Assembly: GCF_000482365.1 (NCBI RefSeq) | Contig: NZ_AXVC01000024.1 | Location: forward strand, 1 to 64,000 | Source: Porphyromonas uenonis DSM 23387 = JCM 13868 | Lineage (GTDB): Bacteria > Bacteroidota > Bacteroidia > Bacteroidales > Porphyromonadaceae | DNA: 64,000 nucleotides | Reading direction: 5' to 3' | In this document: piece after piece, positions 11,361 to 60,930 of the stretch | Layout: each line of letters opens with the position of its first letter | Position numbering within the stretch: the first letter of the stretch is position 1 | Notes under the pieces: model-generated | Told to the model about the DNA's origin: nothing | The model's database searches: none | What the model saw: the letters and a program-made list of their open reading frames with translations, nothing else | Made by a program: the position numbers and the translations under genes

Positions 11361-11578
11361 GAATCGAATTCCTACCTAGGAATTTGCCAAATAGCTACCT
11401 AGGAATTTGCCAATTCCTAGGTAGGAAATGAAAAATTCTTCGGAGGAATCAAATGAAACTTCGGAGGAATCAAAAAATAAGTCCGAAGAATTTGCCCATT
11501 TCCTAGGTAGCAAATCAGAAATATCTACGGAGGAATTTGGGAATTCCTAGGTAGGAAATGAAACGAGCTCATTTTTAT
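11361..11578. repeat. Palindrome-rich dispersed element, copy A
   Basis: This intergenic element is built of CCTAGGTAGGAA / TTCCTACCTAGG palindromes flanking a core at 11433-11493. The core holds two copies of a 21-bp unit (CTTCGGAGGAATCAAATGAAA and a variant) and ends AAATAAGTCCGAAGAATTT. It is inverted relative to copies B (26522-26755) and C (48459-48652). No ORF is credible inside it. Confidence 0.85.
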
Positions 11579-11613: not shown

Positions 11614-11642
11614 TTGGAATTAGAATATATTATGTACCTTTG
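11614..11642 (+). promoter_or_regulatory. Promoter of the riboswitch-4-hydroxybutyrate operon
   Basis: TTG (11614-11616) and the consensus -7 box TACCTTTG (11635-11642) are separated by 18 bp, fitting the Bacteroidota -33/-7 layout. Transcription would start near 11648, at the 5' edge of the riboswitch. Confidence 0.65.
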
Positions 11643-11644
11643 CG

Positions 11645-11904
11645 GTGCATAGGTGCACGAGGAACAACCAATCTTTGTCACCCCGTCTGAATAGGGAACT
11701 TGGTGCGAAGCCAAGACTGTACTCTCAGCTGTAACTCCTGAAGTGCGACCCTGCATTATGATGTCACTGTAGCGCCAGCCTACCAGCATTCTAGCGAATG
11801 TGCCGTAGGTAGCTATGGGAAGACCCAGGGTATCGCCCGTTTTGTACGACTCAATGTGAGCTATACGAACTAGGGAGAAGTCAGAAGACCTGCCTGTGCC
11901 ATAG
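11645..11904 (+). ncRNA. Cobalamin (B12) riboswitch
   Basis: The conserved core blocks appear in order: AATAGGGAA, then GGTGCGAAGCC and ACTGT, CAGCTGTAAC, GTCACTG, GGGAAGAC, and the B12 box AGTCAGAAGACCTGCC at 11879-11894. The B12 box differs from the consensus AGYCMGGAGACCKGCC at one position. The 5' AGGTGC pairs imperfectly with 3' CTGTGCC to close the structure. It is on the plus strand, about 260 nt upstream of 4-hydroxybutyryl-CoA dehydratase, and no other gene lies between. An adenosylcobalamin-type aptamer is likely from the long peripheral domain. Whether binding turns the operon off (most common) or on cannot be read directly. Confidence 0.9.
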
Positions 11905-12160
11905 GACTTTTGTTTTCAGAGCTAGGAAATAAAAAGAATGACAGCGGGACATATATGGCTTCACATAGTGCGTATACTAGAGTCCATAGCAGCGAGACTG
12001 ACTATGAGGCTCCCTCTCGTTGTATCTACCGTCATCAGCCACACCCTACTGCCAGCTTCAAGCTGTAGGAGAGTGACCTCGCCCGTGACTTCTGCTCTGT
12101 ATCTCGAGGGTCCTACTCGGACACACGACGATTCTATTCACTTTATACAGAAAAGAAGTT
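11905..12160 (+). promoter_or_regulatory. Long leader between riboswitch and abfD (expression platform)
   Basis: These 256 nt have no convincing gene. A T-rich stretch (ACTTTTGTTTTC) follows the aptamer directly. A bulged hairpin lies around 12048-12076, with stem CAGC/GCTG and flanking CCTA/TAGG. An 85-codon frame (11938-12195) overlaps the abfD start out of frame and has no recognisable features. This region should hold the switch's output structure. Confidence 0.45.
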
Positions 12161-13636
12161 ATGAAAACACGCGAAGAGTACATCGAGAGCCTTAGAGCTC
12201 TCCATCTAAACGTCTACTTCATGGGCAAGAAGATCGACAACCCTGTCGACCACCCCATGATCCGCCCATCGCTCAATTCGCTAGCGATGACCTATGAGCT
12301 GGCTCAGCAGGAGGAGTACAAAGACCTGATGACCGCCACCTCCAACATTACGGGCAAGACGATCAATCGCTTCTGCCACATTCATCAGAGTGCCGAGGAC
12401 CTCGTCAAGAAGGTCAAGATGCAGCGTCTCCTCGGGCAGAAGACCGCTAGCTGCTTCCAGCGCTGTGTAGGTATGGATGCCTTCAACGCTATTTGGTCTA
12501 CCACCTACGAGATGGATGAGGCGTGCGGTACCAACTACCACCAGCGCTTCAGAGACTATGTCCAGTACTGCCAGGACAACGACCTCGTTGTGGACGGTGC
12601 TATGACCGATCCTAAGGGCGACCGCAGTCTCTCTCCCTCACAGCAGGAGGATCCTGATCTTTACGTACACATCAATGAGATACGCCCTGACGGTATCGTC
12701 GTCACGGGTGCCAAGGCTCACCAGACGGGCTCGGTCAATTCACACGAGCACCTGATCATGCCGACCTGCTCGATGCGTGAGGAGGATGCGGACTACGCCG
12801 TTTCCTTTGCTATCCCTAGTGACGCTGAGGGTGTTACCATCATCTACGGTCGCCAGTCTTGCGACACGCGCAAGATGGAGGAGGGTGCCGACATTGATCT
12901 AGGTAACTCAACCTTCGGAGGTCATGAGACGCTCTTCATCATGGATCACGTCTTCGTACCTATGGAGCGTGTCTTCATGTGCCGTGAGTACCAGTTCTCC
13001 AACATGCTCGTCGAGCGCTTCGCTGGCTATCACCGTCAGTCTTATGGTGGCTGTAAGGTAGGTGTGGGCGATGTCCTCATCGGTGCGGCCGCACTAGCTG
13101 CTGACTACAATGGCGTACCTAAAGCTTCGCACATCAAGGACAAGCTGATCGAGATGGTTCACCTCAATGAGACGCTTTACGCTTGTGGTATCGCTTGCTC
13201 GGCTGAGGGCAAGAAGACGAAGTCGGGCAACTATCTGATCGATATGCTCCTCGCCAACGTATGTAAGCAGAATGTAACTCGCTATCCTTACGAAATAACT
13301 CGTCTCGCTGAGGACATAGCTGGCGGTCTGATGGTTACGATGCCTAGCCAAGCTGACCTGCAGCACGAGGAGGTCGGCCCGCTCGTACGTAAATACCTTG
13401 CTGGCGCTAAGGGCACGGACACGGTGAATCGTATGCGCATCCTACGTCTGATCGAGAACCTCACACTCGGTACCGCTGCCGTAGGCTACCGCACGGAGAG
13501 CCTACACGGTGCTGGATCGCCACAGGCTCAGCGCATCATGATCTCGCGTCAGTGTAATATGGAGGCAAAGAAGGAGCTGGCTCGTCAGATAGCTCATATC
13601 GACACCTCTCTGGACAAGAAGCCTCAGGGCAAGTAG
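12161..13636 (+). CDS. abfD: 4-hydroxybutyryl-CoA dehydratase / vinylacetyl-CoA delta-isomerase
   Basis: This 491-aa FAD and [4Fe-4S] enzyme converts 4-hydroxybutyryl-CoA to crotonyl-CoA by a radical mechanism. Its length matches the family. The cluster ligands are visible at the expected places: C98 and C102 in CFQRC, and H291 and C298 in YHRQSYGGC (99/103/292/299 in the clostridial enzyme). It is the first gene of an operon with a NifU-like protein, CoA-transferase, 4-hydroxybutyrate dehydrogenase and succinate-semialdehyde dehydrogenase. The gene order agrees with what is known from Porphyromonas gingivalis. It sits behind the cobalamin riboswitch. The reaction itself needs no B12. Confidence 0.97.
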   Translation: MKTREEYIESLRALHLNVYFMGKKIDNPVDHPMIRPSLNSLAMTYELAQQEEYKDLMTATSNITGKTINRFCHIHQSAEDLVKKVKMQRLLGQKTASCFQRCVGMDAFNAIWSTTYEMDEACGTNYHQRFRDYVQYCQDNDLVVDGAMTDPKGDRSLSPSQQEDPDLYVHINEIRPDGIVVTGAKAHQTGSVNSHEHLIMPTCSMREEDADYAVSFAIPSDAEGVTIIYGRQSCDTRKMEEGADIDLGNSTFGGHETLFIMDHVFVPMERVFMCREYQFSNMLVERFAGYHRQSYGGCKVGVGDVLIGAAALAADYNGVPKASHIKDKLIEMVHLNETLYACGIACSAEGKKTKSGNYLIDMLLANVCKQNVTRYPYEITRLAEDIAGGLMVTMPSQADLQHEEVGPLVRKYLAGAKGTDTVNRMRILRLIENLTLGTAAVGYRTESLHGAGSPQAQRIMISRQCNMEAKKELARQIAHIDTSLDKKPQGK

Positions 13637-18132: not shown

Positions 18133-18172
18133 CATGAGGCTGACGTGCGTCGGCCGTGGCTACGGATCTACA

Positions 18173-20050
18173 ATGACTACTCACTTTGACATTATCGTAA
18201 TCGGCGCAGGGCATGCTGGCTGTGAGGCGGCGTGCGCTACGGCTCGCATGGGCGCCTCGACGCTCCTCATCACGGGAGACATGAACAAGGTGGCGCAGCT
18301 GAGCTGCAACCCCGCCATGGGTGGCATCGCCAAGGGACAAATAGTGAGAGAGATAGACGCACTCGGCGGCTATACGGGTCAACTATCCGACGCGGCTACC
18401 ATACAGTGGCGCATGCTCAACCGAAGCAAGGGCCCGGCCATGTGGAGCCCACGAGCGCAGCTAGACCGCATGCGATTTATGGAGCTGTGGAGAGGTCAGC
18501 TAGATAGGACGGACGGGTTGGATCTTTGGCAAGACTTCGTCGTAGACATAAAGTTTGGCGCAGCGGATGGCAAACATCTGGTAGTGACGCAGTTGGGCAT
18601 GACCTTTACCGCTGCGAAGGTGGTCATAACGGCTGGGACTTTCCTCGGAGGGCTGATGCACTTCGGCAGGACGATGATCCCAGGCGGACGCATCTCGGAG
18701 CCGGCTAGCCACGGCCTCACGGAGTGTCTCGTAGCGGCGGGACATCATGCCGACCGCATGAAGACGGGTACGCCAGCTCGTATCGACGGTCGCTCCGTAG
18801 ATTGGTCGCTCGTAGAGGAGCAGCCAGGCGACGACGAGACGGGACACTTTAGCTTCCTCCCGATGCAAAGGCCCCCGCTACGACAGCGCTCCTGCTATAT
18901 CCTCTATACGAACGAAGCTTGCCACGACATACTCCGCGCTTCGCTCAGCGACTCGCCACTCTACAACGGACAGATACAGAGCATTGGCCCCCGCTACTGT
19001 CCCAGCATAGAGACGAAGATCGTCAACTTCGCCGACCGCACGCGACATCAGCTCTTCCTCGAGCCGGAGGGCGAGGAGACGAACGAGTACTACCTCAACG
19101 GGTTTAGTTCGTCACTCCCTATTGATACGCAGATCAGAGCTTTACAGACGATCCCTGCACTGCGGCATGTGCAGCTTTACCGCCCTGGCTATGCGATTGA
19201 GTACGACTTCTTCGACCCTCGTGACCTGCACCACACGCTGGAGAGCAAGGTGGTCTCTGGCCTTTACCTAGCTGGTCAGGTCAACGGCACCACCGGCTAC
19301 GAAGAGGCGGCTGGTCAAGGGCTCCTCGCAGGCATCAACGCCGCCTTATCGCTACGTGGTGAGCAGCCCCTTGTCCTACGTCGAGACGAAGCCTACATAG
19401 GCGTCCTCATTGACGACCTCGTGACCAAGGGGGTCGACGAGCCATACCGCATGTTTACCTCACGCGCTGAGTACCGTATACTCCTACGCCAGGACAATGC
19501 CGACCTGCGACTGACACCCTACGCGGAGCGGCTGGGACTAGCGACCGCAGAACGACTACATCGCCTCAAGCAGATCAAGCAAAGGATGGCCGAGCTAGAA
19601 CAGCTCTGCGCCGACTATTCCGTTAAGCCTGAAGCGGTTAACAGCTACCTTACTACTCTAGGCGAGAAACCACTAGACTTCGGCACCAAACTCACGACCC
19701 TACTCCTTCGTCCGCACGTTTCGCTCAGCGACTTGACCGCTCAACTAGACGATTTCGCCACGCTGGTGAGAAATATCATTGGCGACGACACGGAGGCTCT
19801 GACCCGCACCGAAACCGCCATCAAGTATCGGGGCTACATCGAGCGAGAAGAGCAAGCTGCTCAGAAGCTTCATCGCTTGGAGTCGCTAACGCTAGGCGAC
19901 AAGTTCGACTATCAGCAGATCTCTGCACTCCCCATAGAGGCTCGCGAGAAGCTCTCTCGCATTCGCCCCGCCACCATCGCTCAGGCTGCCCGCATCCCTG
20001 GGATCTCCCCGAGCGACATCAACATACTCCTCGTCCTGCTGGGACGATAA
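18173..20050 (+). CDS. mnmG: tRNA uridine-34 carboxymethylaminomethyl modification enzyme MnmG (GidA)
   Basis: This 625-aa FAD enzyme works with MnmE to install the cmnm5 group on wobble uridine 34 of certain tRNAs. The dinucleotide-binding motif [13 protein letters not shown] is at the N-terminus. Family motifs [36 protein letters not shown]-like text and [16 protein letters not shown] follow, with the helical MnmE/tRNA-binding C-terminus. The frame is open from 18134, but the promoter -7 box ends at 18132, so ATG 18173 (MTTHFDIIV) is chosen. It leads a plus-strand series with uvrC, dtd, the MazG-like gene and deoC. In Bacteroides, as I recall, an apt gene sits between mnmG and uvrC; here there is none. 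Confidence 0.97.
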
Positions 20051-20055
20051 GCGTC

Positions 20056-20071
20056 CGTTTCACGTGAAACA
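20056..20071. promoter_or_regulatory. parS-like ParB-binding palindrome
   Basis: A perfect 14-bp palindrome GTTTCACGTGAAAC (20057-20070) followed by A matches 15 of 16 bases of the conserved bacterial parS site (TGTTTCACGTGAAACA). It lies in the 27-bp gap between mnmG and uvrC. parS sites are usually close to the replication origin. Confidence 0.8.
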
Positions 20072-26521: not shown

Positions 26522-26755
26522 ATAAAAAACGAGCTCGTCTGATTTCCTACCATTCCCTAAATAGCTACCTAGGAATTTTGGAAATTCCTAGGTAGGAAAT
26601 GGCCAAATTCTTCGGACTTATTTTTTGATTCCTCCGAAGTTTCATTTGATTCCTCCGAAGTTTCATTTGATTCCTCCGAAGTATTTTTTATTTCCTAGGT
26701 AGGAATTGGAGGAATTCCTAGGTACTTATTTGGGGAATTTCTAGGTAGGAATTCC
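26522..26755. repeat. Palindrome-rich dispersed element, copy B
   Basis: This has the same architecture as copy A but inverted relative to it. The core at 26605-26690 carries three copies of the 21-bp unit GATTCCTCCGAAGTTTCATTT instead of two. It is flanked by CCTAGGTAGGAA-type palindromes. The outer segment near 26528 (ACGAGCTCGT) also matches the outer end of copy A. It lies directly after prfC. Confidence 0.85.
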
Positions 26756-26832
26756 ATTCTTCAAATGACCCGTGTACCATCTCAGTAACACCTTCCCCAA
26801 CTGTGTACTTTTTTCAGGAAGAGGACAGGAGA

Positions 26833-26915
26833 GTTCCTCCCTTGGAACTGAAAAGTTCCTCCGCTGGAACTGAAAAGTTCCTCCGCTGGAACTGAAAAGT
26901 CCTTGGAACTAAAAA
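26833..26915. repeat. 22-bp tandem repeat of hairpin units
   Basis: Three 22-bp units (GTTCCTCC-GCTGGAACTGAAAA type, at 26833, 26855 and 26877) are followed by a shortened unit. Each contains GTTCC and GGAAC arms, so each can fold. Nothing coding overlaps. There are no spacers, so it is not a CRISPR array. The rest of 26916-27033 shows no gene. Confidence 0.85.
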
Positions 26916-38821: not shown

Positions 38822-40036
38822 ATGACTTCGAAAAAGCAGCAAAGACTTTTCTCTCTACTCGCTCTCGTTCTACTCCTCAGTAGTACGACTACTTACGCTC
38901 AGGAGCAGGTACGCTTTACCTTCACAGGCTTCATCCAGGCTATCGCTCAGTATGGCTCCGAGGGCGACTATATCAAGGTTGGCAATGTCACACCTCCTTA
39001 CGACCAGCCCATCACGAGGATGGGAATACGTCGTGGACGACTCGCTACTCAAGCAACTTATGGTGACCTAGGCGCCAAGATCGAGATCAATGCTAGCGAC
39101 CAAAAGATCTCTATCTTCAACGTCTATGCCGAGTACAAGCCCCACTGGGCTGAGGGAGCTTTCGTCAAGGGGGGACTAGCAACGATCGATTTCGGCTATG
39201 AGCTACCTTATAGTTCTAGCAAGCGAGCAGCCTTCGAGCGATCACTCTATATGGCCGATCTCTTCCCTGGAGATACCGACATGGGACTGATGGTCGGATA
39301 CAAAGGAGCTCTAGACCCGAGCAAGCGGTGGCAACTTGAGTCGACACTCTCTATCCTAGCCGGCAATGGAGGCAAAGGAATGATGAAAAACAGCCCAGAC
39401 CTAGCTCTACGCCTAGCTCTGACCGAGCAAGGTAGTAACCACAACATCAGCTTCGGACTATCAGGATATGGTGGATATCTACCAGCGACGGATGGATACT
39501 ATGCCTTTGACAAGAAGACGGCTACCCTTAAGAAAGATCGCATGCTACGTGCTTACGGCGGTGCCTTCCTCACGAGCACGATCAAGCATCGAGGCGGGCA
39601 ACTGATGATCACGACTGAGGGGATCATGGGTCTACAGCCTGGATGGCAAAACGCTAACCTAGCGGTGGGTCCCAAGGCTCCTGCTACTTTTGAAAACAAT
39701 ATCTTCGTACAGCGCCCCTTCATCGCTGGCATGGCACAGCTCGTGGAGCGTATCAAACCTGTGGACCTAGAGCTCTTCGGTCGGTACGCTTACTATGACC
39801 GCAATAGACACTTTGACCCAAAGGCTGAGCAAGATCTCAAGTTGAGCAATCTGACCGCACTGACCGAGGGACGCTCACATCAGCTTTCGACTGGGGTCAA
39901 CTATTTCCTCCAGCAGGATCACCTGCGTCTGTCGCTTCAGTACGACTGCTTCCTACGTCAGCAGATCGAGCAGCAGGCACTCGTCGCTGCCAAGCCACTA
40001 CACATGGTGACCGTAGGGGCGCAGTACAAATTCTAG
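38822..40036 (+). CDS. Outer-membrane porin, OprO/OprP-like
   Basis: This is a 404-aa protein. A signal peptide (LLALVLLLSSTTTYAQ, cleavage near residue 27) is followed by alternating amphipathic strands (FTFTGFIQAIAQYG, RRGRLATQATYGDLGAKIEI). The C-terminus ends in an aromatic residue (VGAQYKF), as in outer-membrane beta-barrels. It resembles phosphate-selective porins O/P of Bacteroidota. The substrate is not proven, and no phosphate genes are nearby. Confidence 0.8.
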   Translation: MTSKKQQRLFSLLALVLLLSSTTTYAQEQVRFTFTGFIQAIAQYGSEGDYIKVGNVTPPYDQPITRMGIRRGRLATQATYGDLGAKIEINASDQKISIFNVYAEYKPHWAEGAFVKGGLATIDFGYELPYSSSKRAAFERSLYMADLFPGDTDMGLMVGYKGALDPSKRWQLESTLSILAGNGGKGMMKNSPDLALRLALTEQGSNHNISFGLSGYGGYLPATDGYYAFDKKTATLKKDRMLRAYGGAFLTSTIKHRGGQLMITTEGIMGLQPGWQNANLAVGPKAPATFENNIFVQRPFIAGMAQLVERIKPVDLELFGRYAYYDRNRHFDPKAEQDLKLSNLTALTEGRSHQLSTGVNYFLQQDHLRLSLQYDCFLRQQIEQQALVAAKPLHMVTVGAQYKF

Positions 40037-40056
40037 CGACGCTCTCGACAGCCCAT

Positions 40057-40440
40057 ATATCATCATCTATATATGATATCTGTATAGCTTATTATCTATA
40101 TCTACTCATGATGATGATGATGGTGCGTCAAATCTGTTCATAACTCCCACTGTGCAGGAGTTAATGACGCTAACATCTGATCCTCTCTAGCTGGCTCTGC
40201 TGGCTACTTAGAGGATATAAAAGAGCGAGACGATCGTGAGAAGTTACGGTCGTCTCGCTCTCTATCTGTACCTGTTCATAACTTGATCAAAACTGGTTGA
40301 TAACTCAGCGGTAACTTATTTGGATAATTGAAATCTTTTCGTAGCTATACAACTTTCCGAGATAAGCAAATAAGTTAGCAGTGAGTTATTGACGAGTTAT
40401 GAACAACTTTTTCAACAGGAAAAGGGGGGTTATGAACAGC
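40057..40440. other. Candidate replication origin (oriC)
   Basis: This roughly 390-bp gap between convergent genes holds four exact copies of the 9-mer TTATGAACA: inverted at 40135-40143 and 40273-40281, direct at 40397-40405 and 40430-40438. A variant TTATCAACC (inverted) lies at 40295-40303. The 9-mer resembles the DnaA box TTATCCACA. An AT-rich stretch (40057-40110) could be the unwinding element. A 12-bp perfect inverted repeat (AGAGCGAGACGA at 40222-40233, its complement at 40250-40261) sits in the middle. The parS-like site 20 kb away is consistent. Confidence 0.55.
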
Positions 40441-41767
40441 TTGTTGACACCCTCATCGGACGCCCGTACCAGATCCCTGTGAGGATCCCCGTACGTACGA
40501 GTAGATAGCTGTCGAAAGCGATCCACAAGGCGGTCATACCGAGTGAATTATAGAGCAGATAGTAGAGGGCGAAGAAGACAATACTCGAGCCGATCATGGA
40601 CCACTTGAGACCTGCTGAGCGGGTCGTGCCGGTGTAGATACCATCCCAGAGGAAGGCGCCGAAGCCTACCAGCGGGATTAGCGCTGCCCAGATATGATAC
40701 TGCCTAGCGTAAGCGACGATCTCGTCATGACTGCTCAAGAAGCGGAGCAAGCCATCGGGATAGAGCGCGAAGAGGATGGTGGCGAGGAGTGATAAGACGA
40801 TGCCGATGGCAAAGAGACGAAGGATAACCGCCCTGAGTAGGTCCATACGACCGGCGCCGTAGAAGCGTCCCGAGAGCGATTCACCTGCATAGGCGAAGCC
40901 ATCCATAAAGTAGCTGAAGATGCTGAAGAACTGCATGAGCAAAGCATTCGCTCCTACGGCTATGGCACCTTCACGGACACCTGCATAGGTGAAGAAGAGC
41001 GTGATACTGCTGATCAGCAAGGAGCGAAGCATCAGATCCCGGCCGAGGATGAGGTAGCGTCCGTAACCTTTCGTATCGGTGAAGTGACTGAACCGCAGAT
41101 GTCGCACGAGATAGCGATACTTAATGAGTAGGGTAGTGAGGAGTATCAGAGCCTGACTATACTGCGCCACGCAGGTACCGATAGCAAGTCCCTCGACACC
41201 CATCTGGTAATGGACGACGAGGGTATAGGAGACGAGGAAGTTGACCACCAGTGCGCTCATGGAGGCAATCATCGGGACACGACTGTTTTGCATTCCGATG
41301 AACCAGCCGTTGAGGGCGTAGATGAGCATTACCGCAGGGGCTGCGTCGAAGATGATTTGGATATATTGCTCTGCCTCTACGCCTAGTCGCTCGGCAGCAC
41401 CGCCTGTGACGAGACCGCTCAGGAGCGTGGCAAAGGGGGAGATGATCAGTACGACGATGGTGCAGAGGAGAGCCATCGTGATGCCACGAGCCAGCTGACG
41501 ATTGATGTCAGAGCTGTCTTGTCGACCATAAGCCTGAGCCACGAGTCCCGTCGTGCCTAAGCGTATGAAGCCAAAGAGCCAGTAGATCGTGTTGGTAATC
41601 GTGGCGGCTACGGTGACTGAGCCGATAGCTTCGGGGTGAGCCATGTGTCCCGCCAGTCCTACATCGATGAGCGAGTGCAGCGGGACGGTGATATTGGAGA
41701 TGATGTTTGGGATCGTGAGCCACAGGATCTGGCGATTTAGACTTTGATCCTCTACCTTAGCGTGCAT
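40430..41767 (-). CDS. MATE family efflux transporter
   Basis: This is a 445-aa transporter with twelve predicted spans in two repeats. Typical MATE features are IPNIISNITVPLHSLIDVGLAGH at the N-terminus and the second-half repeat near GVREGAIAVGANALLMQF. It exports drugs or metabolites by Na+ or H+ antiport; the DinF-like branch fits best by eye. Its start lies 1 bp after the rmlD stop. Its stop codon overlaps the last TTATGAACA box. Confidence 0.92.
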   Translation of the reverse strand: MHAKVEDQSLNRQILWLTIPNIISNITVPLHSLIDVGLAGHMAHPEAIGSVTVAATITNTIYWLFGFIRLGTTGLVAQAYGRQDSSDINRQLARGITMALLCTIVVLIISPFATLLSGLVTGGAAERLGVEAEQYIQIIFDAAPAVMLIYALNGWFIGMQNSRVPMIASMSALVVNFLVSYTLVVHYQMGVEGLAIGTCVAQYSQALILLTTLLIKYRYLVRHLRFSHFTDTKGYGRYLILGRDLMLRSLLISSITLFFTYAGVREGAIAVGANALLMQFFSIFSYFMDGFAYAGESLSGRFYGAGRMDLLRAVILRLFAIGIVLSLLATILFALYPDGLLRFLSSHDEIVAYARQYHIWAALIPLVGFGAFLWDGIYTGTTRSAGLKWSMIGSSIVFFALYYLLYNSLGMTALWIAFDSYLLVRTGILTGIWYGRPMRVSTSCS

Positions 41768-45087: not shown

Positions 45088-48000
45088 TTATCTAGCTATG
45101 TAGATACGCTCAGCGTGATCGCCCACGATGACGATGTAGCCACCTGCGGGGTAGTCGCTTAGAGAGAGCGTACAGCTACCCTCGGCACTGCATAGACCAC
45201 TGTAGAGGAGTCCTCCAGCTAGATCGTATAGTCTGACGATCTGGCCATCGGCAGCACCCGTGATCTGTAGCATAGCACCCTCCACGATGAGGCGTAGAGC
45301 ACCCGTCAGAGGCTGTGGCTCGATAGAGGTGTAGACGACACCCTTGCCCTCGTTGGCACCCCCTGCGTAGTCGTAGACGGTCCAGTTCTTAGACGTGGTG
45401 ACGCTGAGGAAGCGGTCCTCAAAGCGATTGCCCTCCTTGGCGTTCTTCGTATCGATCGCCATAAAGTCTGCCTTGTCCTCAGGATTGCGCTGAGGCAGTG
45501 CGTTGACGATCTGCTCCATAGCGTTAGCTCCGATCTGATTGTTGTAGATATGTAGTGAGGTCAGCTTTGGCATACCCGTCACATCTACAGAGGTGAGCTC
45601 ATTGTCATAGAGGAAGAGAGCCGTCAGGTTCGGCATCTTCGTCCACTCAATAGTGTTAAGCTTATTATGAGCTAAGATGACCGACTCGAGGAGCGCCGAC
45701 TTGGAGAGGTCTAGCTTGGTGAGTTGGTTCTCTGGTAGGTATAACGTCGTCAAGTGAGGAGCTCCCGTCACATCGATCTTGGTGAGGTGACACTGAGTAG
45801 CCATGAGCGTAGCAATGTCGCCACGTATCGTGATCGTAGGCTGCTCGACGATCATATCCTTGCCCTCGATACGTACACCCTCGATCTTGGAGGCGTTGTT
45901 GTCTACGTTGAGCGCGACGATGAAGATCTTCTCTCCTGCTGGTATCGTAGTCGTCATCGTGATGACACCCTCAGTCACAGGTGTATCACCCTCCATGATG
46001 GTGCCAAAGTCACTCCACATAGCTGCCTTCTTGTAGTTATTAGCTGAGCCAACAGGTACGACCAGCGTAGCGAGCTTGAGATTGATCTCTCCAAAAGGAC
46101 TCTCGCCCGTGTAGTCTGCGCTGACAGGCTCAGACATCAGAGCGACCACCTTGCGTAGGTTAGCACAGTGGTAGAAAGCGTAGTCGCCCAGCTCCTTCAG
46201 ATTGGCGGGCAGGATCACCTCCGTGAGCGACTCATTGCGCTGGAAGGCACGTGCAGCGATAGCTGTCACCTGCGCTGGGATAGCTGCAAGAGGGCTAAGC
46301 GCCTCAGGATATGCCACGAGCGTCTTCAGATCAGCCGAGTAGAGCGTCTTGCCCTGTACAGCATAGTGCGTATTGCCTGTAGCGACCGAGTACTCCTCGA
46401 GCGACTTGCAGCGCATGAAGGCACCTGGTCCAAAAGTCTCTAGCGAAGCAGGCAGGTCGACCTTCTTTAGCTTGCTCGACCCCTGGAAAGCACTCTCACC
46501 GATCTCTTTGAGTCCCTCGGGCAGCGTCAGCGTCACAAGACCTACGGCACCAGCGGCCGCGTCCTTCTCGATCTTCGTCACACTCGTTGGGAGCGTGTAG
46601 CTCTCACCACGCAGTGCTGCGTAGCAGACGAGACGCGTACCATCGGCTGAGAGGAGGACATTGTCCACCACCTTGTAGTACTCATTGGCCGAAGCCATGA
46701 CAAACTTAGAGAGCCCCGTGCAGTAGCCGAAAGCATCGCTCGCTACCGACTCAATGCTCTGCGGGAAGGTGAAGCTCTGTAGCGCAAAGTTGTTCCAGAA
46801 AGCACGACTGCCGATAGATCTGAGGCGCTTGTTAGTGACCACCTCCGCAAGATTCTCACAGTTTTGGAAGGCACCCTCTTCGATCGTCTCTAGAGCTTCC
46901 GGGAGTACGACACGCTTGACATCTTTATTGAGGAAAGCAAACGACTTGATCGTCCGTACGCGGTTCAGCACTTTGTCGTGAGACATATCTATATCCGTCT
47001 CAGGGCCACTCCAAGAGACCAGAGTGCGACCCTCATCCTCGAGCTTGTAAGAGGTAGGGTTGATCTGACTATTATCCTCTAGAGGGAGGTAGTTCTTGAA
47101 GGCATTCCACGTGGTAGTCTGAGCTTTGTAGGTCTCGACCGACTCAGCAGGGACATAGAGCGTCGCATTGTACTTCTTTGTTTGATAGAAGATCATACGT
47201 CCCCCTAGTGGAGTAGTCATATGATTGCGAAACTCTAGGAGCGAGTTCATATAGCTAAAGCAACCATCCCCGAGCTTCGTAATGGTAGACGGCACAGAGA
47301 CTTTCGCAATGCTGGCACAGTGGCTGATGGCATCCTGGCCGATCTCCTCAATGCCCTCCTCGAAGGTCACCTCCGTGATGTAGTTAGACTGGTAGAATGC
47401 AGAGTCAGCCACCACGCGGATAGTGCCGGGTATCGTGATGGAACCCGCTAGAGCCTTGCTCTCAAAGAAAGCCTTGCGACCCATCTCAGTCAGCTTCTTG
47501 CTAAACTTGATAGACTTTAGATACTGTGAGTAGGCAAACGCGTAGTCCCCGATGCGGGTCACGCTCTCAGGGATCGTAAAGCTCTCGCCACTTGTCGCGG
47601 AGGGGTAAGCAATCAGTGTCGTGCCAGTAGCGTTGTAGAGGACACCGTCCACCACCTTGTAGTAGCTATTGGACCCCGCCAGTTGATAGCTCTTGATTCC
47701 CTGACAATTGACCACAAAAGCCTCACCAATAGACTTTACAGAGGCTGGCAAGCGCAGAGTCTGTAGCTGAGGACAGCGGTAGAAAGCCTCCGAAGCAATC
47801 TCCTCGAGACCCTCCGCAAAGACGATCTCTGTCAGCCCTGCACACTCATAGATCGCATTGAAGCCGATCTTGCGTAGTGATGCAGAGAAGACAATACGCT
47901 GTATTTGTCCCTTGTAAGCGAATGCGTTAGGCGCGATCTCGGTCACCTGACGCAGCTTAGCATCAGAGGTGAAGTCGATCTCCTGCTCATTGCCTAGCCA

Positions 48001-48111
48001 CTTGACGAGGCAGGTACCCTTGAGCTGGTACGATTCGGCTGGATAGTCAGCCCGTGCACCGACGGCGCAGAGCAGAGCCAGCAAGGTGAATAGAAGTAGT
48101 TTTGATTTCAT
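45088..48111 (-). CDS. BspA-like leucine-rich repeat surface protein
   Basis: This is a 1007-aa protein with a signal peptide (LLLFTLLALLCAVGARA). About 25 LRR_5 (BspA/TpLRR) units of the form LTEIVFAEGLEEIASEAFYRC follow, in two similar halves of about 340 residues, each beginning SYQL..GTCLVKW or SYKLEDEGRTLVSW. After residue 720 a classical LRR set appears (LTKLDLSKSALLESVIL). A C-terminal 75-residue domain (VRLYDLAGGLLYSG, YPAGGYIVIVGD) resembles a type IX sorting domain. BspA proteins bind host matrix or other bacteria; that role is inferred. The internal duplication is clear. Confidence 0.9.
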   Translation of the reverse strand: MKSKLLLFTLLALLCAVGARADYPAESYQLKGTCLVKWLGNEQEIDFTSDAKLRQVTEIAPNAFAYKGQIQRIVFSASLRKIGFNAIYECAGLTEIVFAEGLEEIASEAFYRCPQLQTLRLPASVKSIGEAFVVNCQGIKSYQLAGSNSYYKVVDGVLYNATGTTLIAYPSATSGESFTIPESVTRIGDYAFAYSQYLKSIKFSKKLTEMGRKAFFESKALAGSITIPGTIRVVADSAFYQSNYITEVTFEEGIEEIGQDAISHCASIAKVSVPSTITKLGDGCFSYMNSLLEFRNHMTTPLGGRMIFYQTKKYNATLYVPAESVETYKAQTTTWNAFKNYLPLEDNSQINPTSYKLEDEGRTLVSWSGPETDIDMSHDKVLNRVRTIKSFAFLNKDVKRVVLPEALETIEEGAFQNCENLAEVVTNKRLRSIGSRAFWNNFALQSFTFPQSIESVASDAFGYCTGLSKFVMASANEYYKVVDNVLLSADGTRLVCYAALRGESYTLPTSVTKIEKDAAAGAVGLVTLTLPEGLKEIGESAFQGSSKLKKVDLPASLETFGPGAFMRCKSLEEYSVATGNTHYAVQGKTLYSADLKTLVAYPEALSPLAAIPAQVTAIAARAFQRNESLTEVILPANLKELGDYAFYHCANLRKVVALMSEPVSADYTGESPFGEINLKLATLVVPVGSANNYKKAAMWSDFGTIMEGDTPVTEGVITMTTTIPAGEKIFIVALNVDNNASKIEGVRIEGKDMIVEQPTITIRGDIATLMATQCHLTKIDVTGAPHLTTLYLPENQLTKLDLSKSALLESVILAHNKLNTIEWTKMPNLTALFLYDNELTSVDVTGMPKLTSLHIYNNQIGANAMEQIVNALPQRNPEDKADFMAIDTKNAKEGNRFEDRFLSVTTSKNWTVYDYAGGANEGKGVVYTSIEPQPLTGALRLIVEGAMLQITGAADGQIVRLYDLAGGLLYSGLCSAEGSCTLSLSDYPAGGYIVIVGDHAERIYIAR

Positions 48112-48240: not shown

Positions 48241-48287
48241 AGCCCTTGCCCCCACCTCAACTCCGTACACCGCTTACTCGTCTCATC

Positions 48288-48458
48288 TAACCTCTAATTC
48301 CTAATCTCTAATCCCCAACCTCTAATCTCTAATCTCCCCCCCAATCTCTAACCTCTAATCTCTAATTTCTAACCTCTAATCCCCCCCCCAATCTCTAACC
48401 CCCAACCTCTAATCTCTAACCTCTAATCTCTAATTTCTAACCTCTAATCTCCCCCCCC
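48288..48458. repeat. TCTAATCTC repeat array with poly-C tracts
   Basis: Some twenty imperfect copies of CTAATCTCTAACCT-type words are interrupted by C-tracts of 7 (48336-48342), 9 (48381-48389) and 9 (48451-48459). No gene is present. It lies between the divergent promoters of the BspA-like gene and the restriction-modification operon. Confidence 0.85.
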
Positions 48459-48652
48459 CTAGGAAATGGCCCAATTCCTACCTAGGAAATGACCAAATAG
48501 CTACCTAGGAAATGGCCAAATTCTTCGGACTTATTTTTTGATTCCTCCGAAGTTTCATTTGATTCCTCCGAAGAATTTTTTCTTTCCTACCTAGGAAATA
48601 AAAAATTCCTAGGTAGCTATTTGGCAAATTCCTACCTAGGAATTCGATAGCT
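48459..48652. repeat. Palindrome-rich dispersed element, copy C
   Basis: The core at 48518-48580 has two 21-bp units (GATTCCTCCGAAG-TTTCATTT type), in the same orientation as copy B. It is flanked by CCTACCTAGGAA palindromes on both sides. Short TTAGAAATTAG repeats follow to 48690. Confidence 0.85.
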
Positions 48653-58313: not shown

Positions 58314-58445
58314 TAGAGATTAGAGGTTAGAGGCTAGAAGTTAGAGGTTAGAAGTTAGAAGTTAGAGGTCTGATCATTCCGATAGCTCTAGCCAATAGCC
58401 AACAGCCAACAGCCAACAGCCAACAGCCAATAGCCAACAGCTAGG
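58314..58445. repeat. Short-repeat island (TTAGAGGTTAGA / AGCCAACAGCC)
   Basis: About seven GAGGTTAGAAGTTA-type units (58314-58372) are followed by about six AGCCAACAGCC/AGCCAATAGCC units (58385-58440). They share words with the other islands in this window. Confidence 0.8.
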
Positions 58446-60820: not shown

Positions 60821-60898
60821 TACTCTATCATCTAATCTCTAGCTTCTAACATCTAATCTCTAGCTTCTAACATCTAATCTCTAGCTACTTACCTCTAA
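60821..60898. repeat. TCTAATCTCTAGCTTCTAACA tandem repeats
   Basis: Nearly identical 21-bp units (CATCTAATCTCTAGCTTCTAA) occur at least three times before the transglycosylase promoter region. A -7-like box TACCTTAG follows at 60904-60911. Confidence 0.8.
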
Positions 60899-60930
60899 TT
60901 TCGTACCTTAGCGATATGAAATGCTCTCGA

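Follow-up and report, generated by a model that had tools for sequence, protein, structure and literature searches.

A probable chromosomal replication origin with divergent DnaA-type boxes in a Porphyromonas species close to P. uenonis

A non-coding island of about 415 bp in the stretch of DNA analyzed here (64 kb; herein the window) is very probably the chromosomal origin of replication, oriC, of a Porphyromonas species close to P. uenonis. The island is intergenic, holds a unique cluster of the 9-mer TTATGAACA and includes an AT-rich, putative unwinding element; mnmG and a parS-like site lie near it, rRNA operons are codirectional, and dnaA is not adjacent. The original prediction had named this place a candidate oriC. 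Evidence independent of GC skew now supports it: the island is conserved, a proposed unwinding element and a parS-like site accompany it, rRNA operons run in the fitting direction, and the boxes align with canonical-type DnaA boxes of a relative.

Architecture and conservation of the island

The island lies between two convergent open reading frames (ORFs) and overlaps the end of the right-hand one. Its features, the flanking genes and the repeat arrays of the window are the following.

38822-40036, plus strand: 404-aa protein on the left flank, without a Pfam match; a "porin" only by look
40052-40470: conserved non-coding island, the proposed oriC; 91-95% identity in three other Porphyromonas genomes
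40054-40115: proposed DNA unwinding element, AT-rich; least stable DNA, overlapping the triplet run
40102-40125, minus strand: trio-like run of eight NAN triplets, CAC-CAT(x5)-GAG-TAG
40135-40143, minus strand: DnaA-type box 1, exact TTATGAACA; invariant in all four aligned genomes
40222-40261: hairpin between boxes 1 and 2; 16-nt arms (40222-40237 and 40246-40261), 94% complementary
40273-40281, minus strand: DnaA-type box 2, exact TTATGAACA; TTATCAACA in G025
40280-40409: dyad-symmetric core with AT-rich center, box 2 to box 3; 43-nt arms, 79% complementary
40295-40303, minus strand: weaker box-like site TTATCAACC, a variant of the box; invariant in the four-genome alignment
40397-40405, plus strand: DnaA-type box 3, exact TTATGAACA; in the four-genome alignment
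40409-40417, plus strand: weaker box-like site TTTTCAACA, a variant of the box
40430-40438, plus strand: DnaA-type box 4, exact TTATGAACA; overlaps the stop codon of the MATE gene
40430-41767, minus strand: MatE (MATE) transporter on the right flank, with a Pfam match
11372-11550, 26624-26900, 48286-48590, 58314-58441 and 60823-60899: low-complexity arrays

From left to right the order is thus unstable DNA, triplets, a 9-nt spacer, box 1, hairpins, box 2, core, and boxes 3 and 4. The four exact copies of TTATGAACA, two per strand inside 304 bp, are the only ones in the 64-kb window and stand where they had been predicted; the one extra variant expected beside them turned out to be two, TTATCAACC at 40295 (minus) and TTTTCAACA at 40409 (plus). 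As also predicted, the 9-mer is two bases away from the classic DnaA box, differing from TTATCCACA at positions 5 and 6. The canonical pattern TTWTNCACA wants C at position 6, where TTATGAACA has A; the box is therefore a variant and not canonical.

The 2,253,163-bp draft genome to which the window belongs (G000; 29 contigs) contains ten copies of TTATGAACA, four in the cluster and six scattered singly. A mirror-image control word occurs nine times in the same genome, so TTATGAACA is not enriched elsewhere; it is the cluster, and not the word itself, that is special. The rough probability that four of ten randomly placed sites fall within 304 bp, estimated after the cluster had been seen, is 2e-9, in line with the earlier judgment that chance recurrence is very unlikely. 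Nor is the 9-mer equally clustered at many loci: there is a single cluster in G000 and one each in G002, G025 and G034 (for G034, among 9 of its 14 matches listed). The 9-mer TTATNCACA forms no cluster in G000, G025 or G034, where no two of its sites lie <850 bp apart (33, 24 and 32 sites, all listed). Within the window, 21 different 9-mers recur at least four times inside 304 bp; two come from the box cluster and the other 19 from repeat arrays at 11372-11376 and 48286-48459. Such low-complexity arrays are interspersed and recur at several places in the window, with units of 7, 14 and 21 bp (TCTAATC, AGCCAAC) and of 21-23 bp carrying CCTAGG palindromes.

We searched 26 genomes of the genus, including the window's own, for the island. 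It matches G002 (P. uenonis 60-3) at 95% identity, G034 at 94% and G025 at 91%. No match was found in the other 22, among them G033 (∼310 contigs), which shares the DnaA helix type of the window's genome. G025 is a single contig of 2,186,370 bp, which we take to be P. asaccharolytica DSM 20707, and the main contig of G034 has 2,517,119 bp; G029 (2,354,886 bp), used below, is presumably P. gingivalis ATCC 33277. The closest match of the MATE protein among named genomes is likewise in P. uenonis 60-3 (95%). In the four-genome alignment 15 of the 16 box cells read TTATGAACA, the exception being the TTATCAACA of G025. The island is retained in G025 and G034 despite insertions at its flanks. In G025 these amount to ∼250 bp of different sequence on the side of the porin gene; in G034, ∼5 kb containing other ORFs separate the island from the MATE gene.

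The AT-rich stretch reported beside the boxes is real. Across the 64-kb window, stability is lowest at 40055 among 60-mers and at 40054 among 100-mers, and the equivalent 60-mer is also the least stable within the 20-21-kb loci of G025, G034 and L002; for 200-mers, 438 of 63,800 window positions have a lower stability than the best 200-mer of the island. The triplet run is separated from box 1 by 9 nt (12 nt up to the first CAT). A run of eight NAN triplets is reached at 0.2% of random window positions and in 10 of 5,000 shuffles of the same 60 nt; runs at the other three boxes count one, four and one. L002, G025 and G034 have runs of seven, eight and eight, each with the 9-nt spacer, and the triplet phase is kept in P. 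uenonis because exactly 3 bp are missing there.

Two hairpins lie between boxes 1 and 2, where the segment 40165-40272 folds better than all of 200 shuffles (z = -4.8). The inverted repeat of the original prediction is present, but the 12 bp given for it was too short, its arms being 16 nt. This hairpin (40222-40261) is nearly unchanged in the four genomes and is possibly a two-way terminator that shields the unwinding element from transcription. In the dyad-symmetric core 46 of 75 pairs are complementary, a level reached by none of 500 shuffles.

Box positions in relatives and the DnaA recognition helix

Candidate origins were also sought in G029, G030, G005 and G003; as the search there was confined to the surroundings of mnmG or parS-like sites, their nearness to these markers is not independent evidence. 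The G005 cluster, 14 kb after mnmG-parS, consists of four TTATCCACA and one TTATCAACA, and its box spacings (128/55/126/26) are identical in the P. gingivalis-like G029; the DnaA helices of the two genomes are the same. The G029 candidate lies at about 2176760-2177103, ∼180 kb from dnaA. Both can be aligned with the window core (z = 10.7 for G005 and 5.1 for G029; 0 of 500 shuffles each), and the reverse orientation reaches nearly the same score, the core being symmetric. The core of G030 does not align with that of the window (z = -0.1); for G003 the result depends on the placing, with z = 6.8 in one and no alignment (z = 0.2) in another. These two are weaker candidates, since both have a high background of box-like words and neither has its least stable DNA next to the first box.

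Box homology was assessed with four MAFFT modes on three sequence sets, giving 12 alignments each with G005 and G029. Box 1 falls exactly on a TTATCCACA of G005 in 9 of 12, and box 2 overlaps a TTATCCACA of G005 in 9 of 12, always with inserted bases; a first pairwise alignment did not place box 2 on a G005 box. Box 3 coincides with the TTATCAACA of G005 and with a TTTTCAACA of G029 in 12 of 12 alignments each, and box 4 has no like-oriented partner in either genome. As judged from these alignments, three of the four boxes, two of them firmly, stand where the relative has canonical-type boxes; TTATGAACA therefore looks like a derived DnaA box.

We also compared the DNA-binding domain of DnaA, numbering residues by alignment to E. 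coli domain IV (1j1v). The window's genome has GGRSHATVLHS where E. coli has GGRDHTTVLHA. Among the eight base-contacting residues given in PMC5043019 (399, 423, 432-435 and 438-439), three differ from E. coli (423, P to S; 433, D to S; 435, T to A) and five are kept; against G029 only 433 differs (N to S). Residue 433 is thus Ser here, Asn in the gingivalis-like lineages and Asp in E. coli, and there is a further Ser at 440. Helices were read from 24 of 26 loci, L104 and L107 not being matched by the pattern. Ser433 without Ser440 occurs in G027, G011, G007 and G009; the stretches downstream of mnmG in G007 and G009 have no clear box cluster. We consider it evenly balanced whether the P. uenonis/asaccharolytica-like clade switched its oriC boxes at aligned positions from the TTATCCACA/TTATCAACA type to TTATGAACA together with the change at DnaA residue 433 and Ser440. 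Box and helix changes amount to one evolutionary event, and we therefore treat their link as a hypothesis.

Chromosomal context and competing explanations

Two markers of the origin region lie ∼20 kb from the cluster in the window.

18134-20050, plus strand: mnmG/gidA, ori-region marker (Pfam GIDA, 493 bits)
20056-20071: parS-like palindrome CGTTTCACGTGAAACA, directly after mnmG; ≤1 mismatch to the consensus

The distance is 20-31 kb across G000, G025 and G034 (parS-like site and cluster at 550,252 and 581,060 in G025; at 825,308 and 800,505 in G034). Exactly one site with ≤1 mismatch is found in each of G000, G025, G034, G029 and G030, and three in G012. At ≤2 mismatches a reversed control of the pattern matches equally or more often in five of six genomes, so that only the one-mismatch sites and the place after mnmG carry weight. 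G029 and G030 share the segment mnmG-parS-uvrC together with the three genes that follow it, while most of the other window genes were not found near it. Elsewhere in the window, a cobalamin riboswitch (11634-11911, plus strand, 67.7 bits) precedes an ORF at 12161, and a BspA-type leucine-rich repeat protein of 1007 aa is encoded at 45088-48111.

A parS-like site directly follows mnmG in 9 of the 13 stretches examined: the window, G003, G005, G007, G009, G028, G029, G013 (overlapping half-sites at 296644) and G030 (one mismatch). It is missing in G004, G012, G014 and G026. Eight of the 13 stretches downstream of mnmG (only 7-18 kb covered in G009, G014 and G028) contain no clear box cluster, and four of these eight have no parS-like site. 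G012, G004, G014 and G026, with DnaA helices of the KDHTT/NDHTT/SDHTT type, have neither parS-like site nor cluster in the stretch examined, and no box cluster surrounds the parS-like sites that G012 has of its own; the origins of these four probably lie elsewhere.

The direction of rRNA operons was scored in the complete chromosomes G025, G034, G029 and G030, the terminus being taken as opposite the origin; G012 was left out, having no candidate cluster, and the search for rRNA covered only 20 first-look hits per genome. All 12 operons found point away from the candidate cluster, compared with 7 of 12 when dnaA is taken as the origin. The clusters used for G029 and G030 are candidates from this same analysis, and the share of chromosome positions matching the cluster's fit is 0.22 in G025, 0.35 in G034, 0.27 in G029 and 0.19 in G030. 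G000 yielded one rRNA, on a contig other than that of the window. The absence of dnaA from the window, noted originally, reflects its location on another contig (C9); the gene is ∼580 kb from the cluster in G025 and ∼799 kb in G034, and no near box occurs within ∼1.1 kb upstream of it. The accompanying remark that such separation is common in Bacteroidota agrees with PMC4755523, according to which Bacteroidetes commonly have their oriC a long way from dnaA; adjacency to dnaA is not, on that account, defining for oriC in this phylum.

GC skew of the window alone shows no clear turn. Because the skew is weak and follows gene strand, a model with two terms, gene strand and replichore, was fitted to the third codon positions in sampled stretches. 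The leading strand was assumed to be G-rich; the mirror-image solution gives an equally good fit. The original prediction had offered a skew minimum elsewhere as grounds for its rejection, and the outcome differs between genomes. In G034 the strand-corrected origin (785-810 kb) agrees with the cluster (800,350; rank 4 of 504). G029 is borderline, with an origin at 2,180-2,230 kb and 2,265 kb and the cluster just outside at 2,177 kb (Δχ2 = 8.4); dnaA does no better there (Δχ2 = 9.4) and is much worse as the origin in G025 (Δχ2 = 42) and G034 (Δχ2 = 27). In G025, by contrast, the corrected origin falls at 650-715 kb and the cluster at 581 kb (Δχ2 = 12.2, rank 76 of 438), and the plain cumulative minimum, at 675-677 kb (contiguous 440-790 kb), is about 95 kb off.

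This offset is what favors an origin-proximal, DnaA-binding regulatory or titration locus of the datA kind, the true oriC then lying at a distance of at most ∼95 kb: the G025 minimum stands at 677 kb and not at 581 kb. The nearly flat cumulative curve of G025 from 570 to 650 kb adds to it. We nevertheless regard such a locus as unlikely. Skew and cluster coincide in G034, no other cluster of either spelling exists in G000 or G025, and the island itself includes a proposed unwinding element and a trio-like run. Moreover, G025 and G034 are collinear over a 49-kb block (537-586 kb in G025) that takes in mnmG, the parS-like site and the cluster, and synteny outside it is scrambled; the many rearrangements between G025 and G034 just beyond the block could displace a skew minimum and, judging from that scrambling, may have done so in G025.

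Less likely still is a cluster serving another DNA-binding protein (a transcription regulator or nucleoid protein) or a pair of terminators for the convergent genes, for which the strong hairpin between these genes would speak. Since the two flanking genes converge on the island, there is no neighboring promoter to regulate; a consensus scan found no promoter either, and no terminator with a T run. Further, TTATGAACA is not clustered elsewhere in G000, and the aligned positions of G005 carry E. coli-type DnaA boxes. That the island serves the replication or maintenance of an integrated mobile element, or that the boxes cluster by chance, is scarcely credible: TTATGAACA is short and the first claim had no genome-wide count behind it, but the island is conserved in four genomes next to the same genes, has no match among 72,556 plasmid records (phages not included), and random clustering has a probability of about 2e-9.

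Proposed mechanism and comparison with known origins

With the island read as oriC, DnaA is predicted to bind the four TTATGAACA boxes. The dyad-symmetric, AT-rich core lies between boxes 2 and 3, box 4 stands outside box 3, and box 1 adjoins the main proposed unwinding element. A DnaA filament would then run leftward from box 1 over the NAN triplets into 40054-40115, opening this segment for helicase loading as the origin fires. In the clade, box positions 5-6 would have changed to GA, from CC in box 1 and probably box 2 and from CA in box 3, and this change may have come together with those in the DnaA recognition helix.

The arrangement resembles an origin with the basal unwinding system (BUS; B. 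subtilis type), which, as described in PMC8287927, shares the order of box, 9-12-nt spacer, NAN triplets and AT-rich unwinding region; the spacer there peaks around 10-13 and the triplet pattern is (.A.){3,}. A box, a spacer of 0-16 nt and at least three NAN triplets are found at box 1 in all four genomes. The BUS triplet consensus 3'-GAT-5' (5'-TAG) is not, because the triplets are mostly CAT, with one TAG among the eight of the window. Compared with that description, the box spelling also differs and dnaA is not adjacent. The G005 and G029 candidates, within the same genus, lie 14-15 kb from mnmG-parS, which is on the same side as in the window, and have an AT-rich stretch left of the outer box and a core alignable with the window's. 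They differ in their boxes (TTATCCACA, TTTTCCACA, TTATTCACA, TTATCAACA and TTTTCAACA types) and in having no trio-like run by the same test, and the window's flanking genes were not found beside the cluster of G029.

For chromosome I of Prevotella intermedia, PMC4755523 likewise describes a predicted Bacteroidetes oriC whose DnaA boxes are far from dnaA; the prediction there was made with E. coli boxes. Epsilonproteobacterial origins likewise have a lineage-specific box feature, which PMC5043019 tentatively ascribes to recognition-helix residues; their mark is a T at position 5 within the usual pattern, whereas positions 5-6 are GA here. The kind of system is known, and what is new is that the boxes of this clade diverge while its relatives retain boxes of the usual type. 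A literature search (DoriC not covered) returned no paper naming this origin, the P. asaccharolytica oriC or TTATGAACA.

Searches beside dnaA, or for E. coli-type boxes only, would miss such an origin. The G029 candidate, at its distance of ∼180 kb from dnaA, contrasts with the P. gingivalis oriC that a figure legend in PMC5771137 draws at the first base of dnaA. A box switch between such close relatives would make the code by which DnaA reads its box directly testable with a handful of residues. If the joint switch of box and helix is true, one genus, Porphyromonas, would contain a canonical DnaA-oriC pair and, in a sister lineage, a second natural pair that is possibly orthogonal to it.
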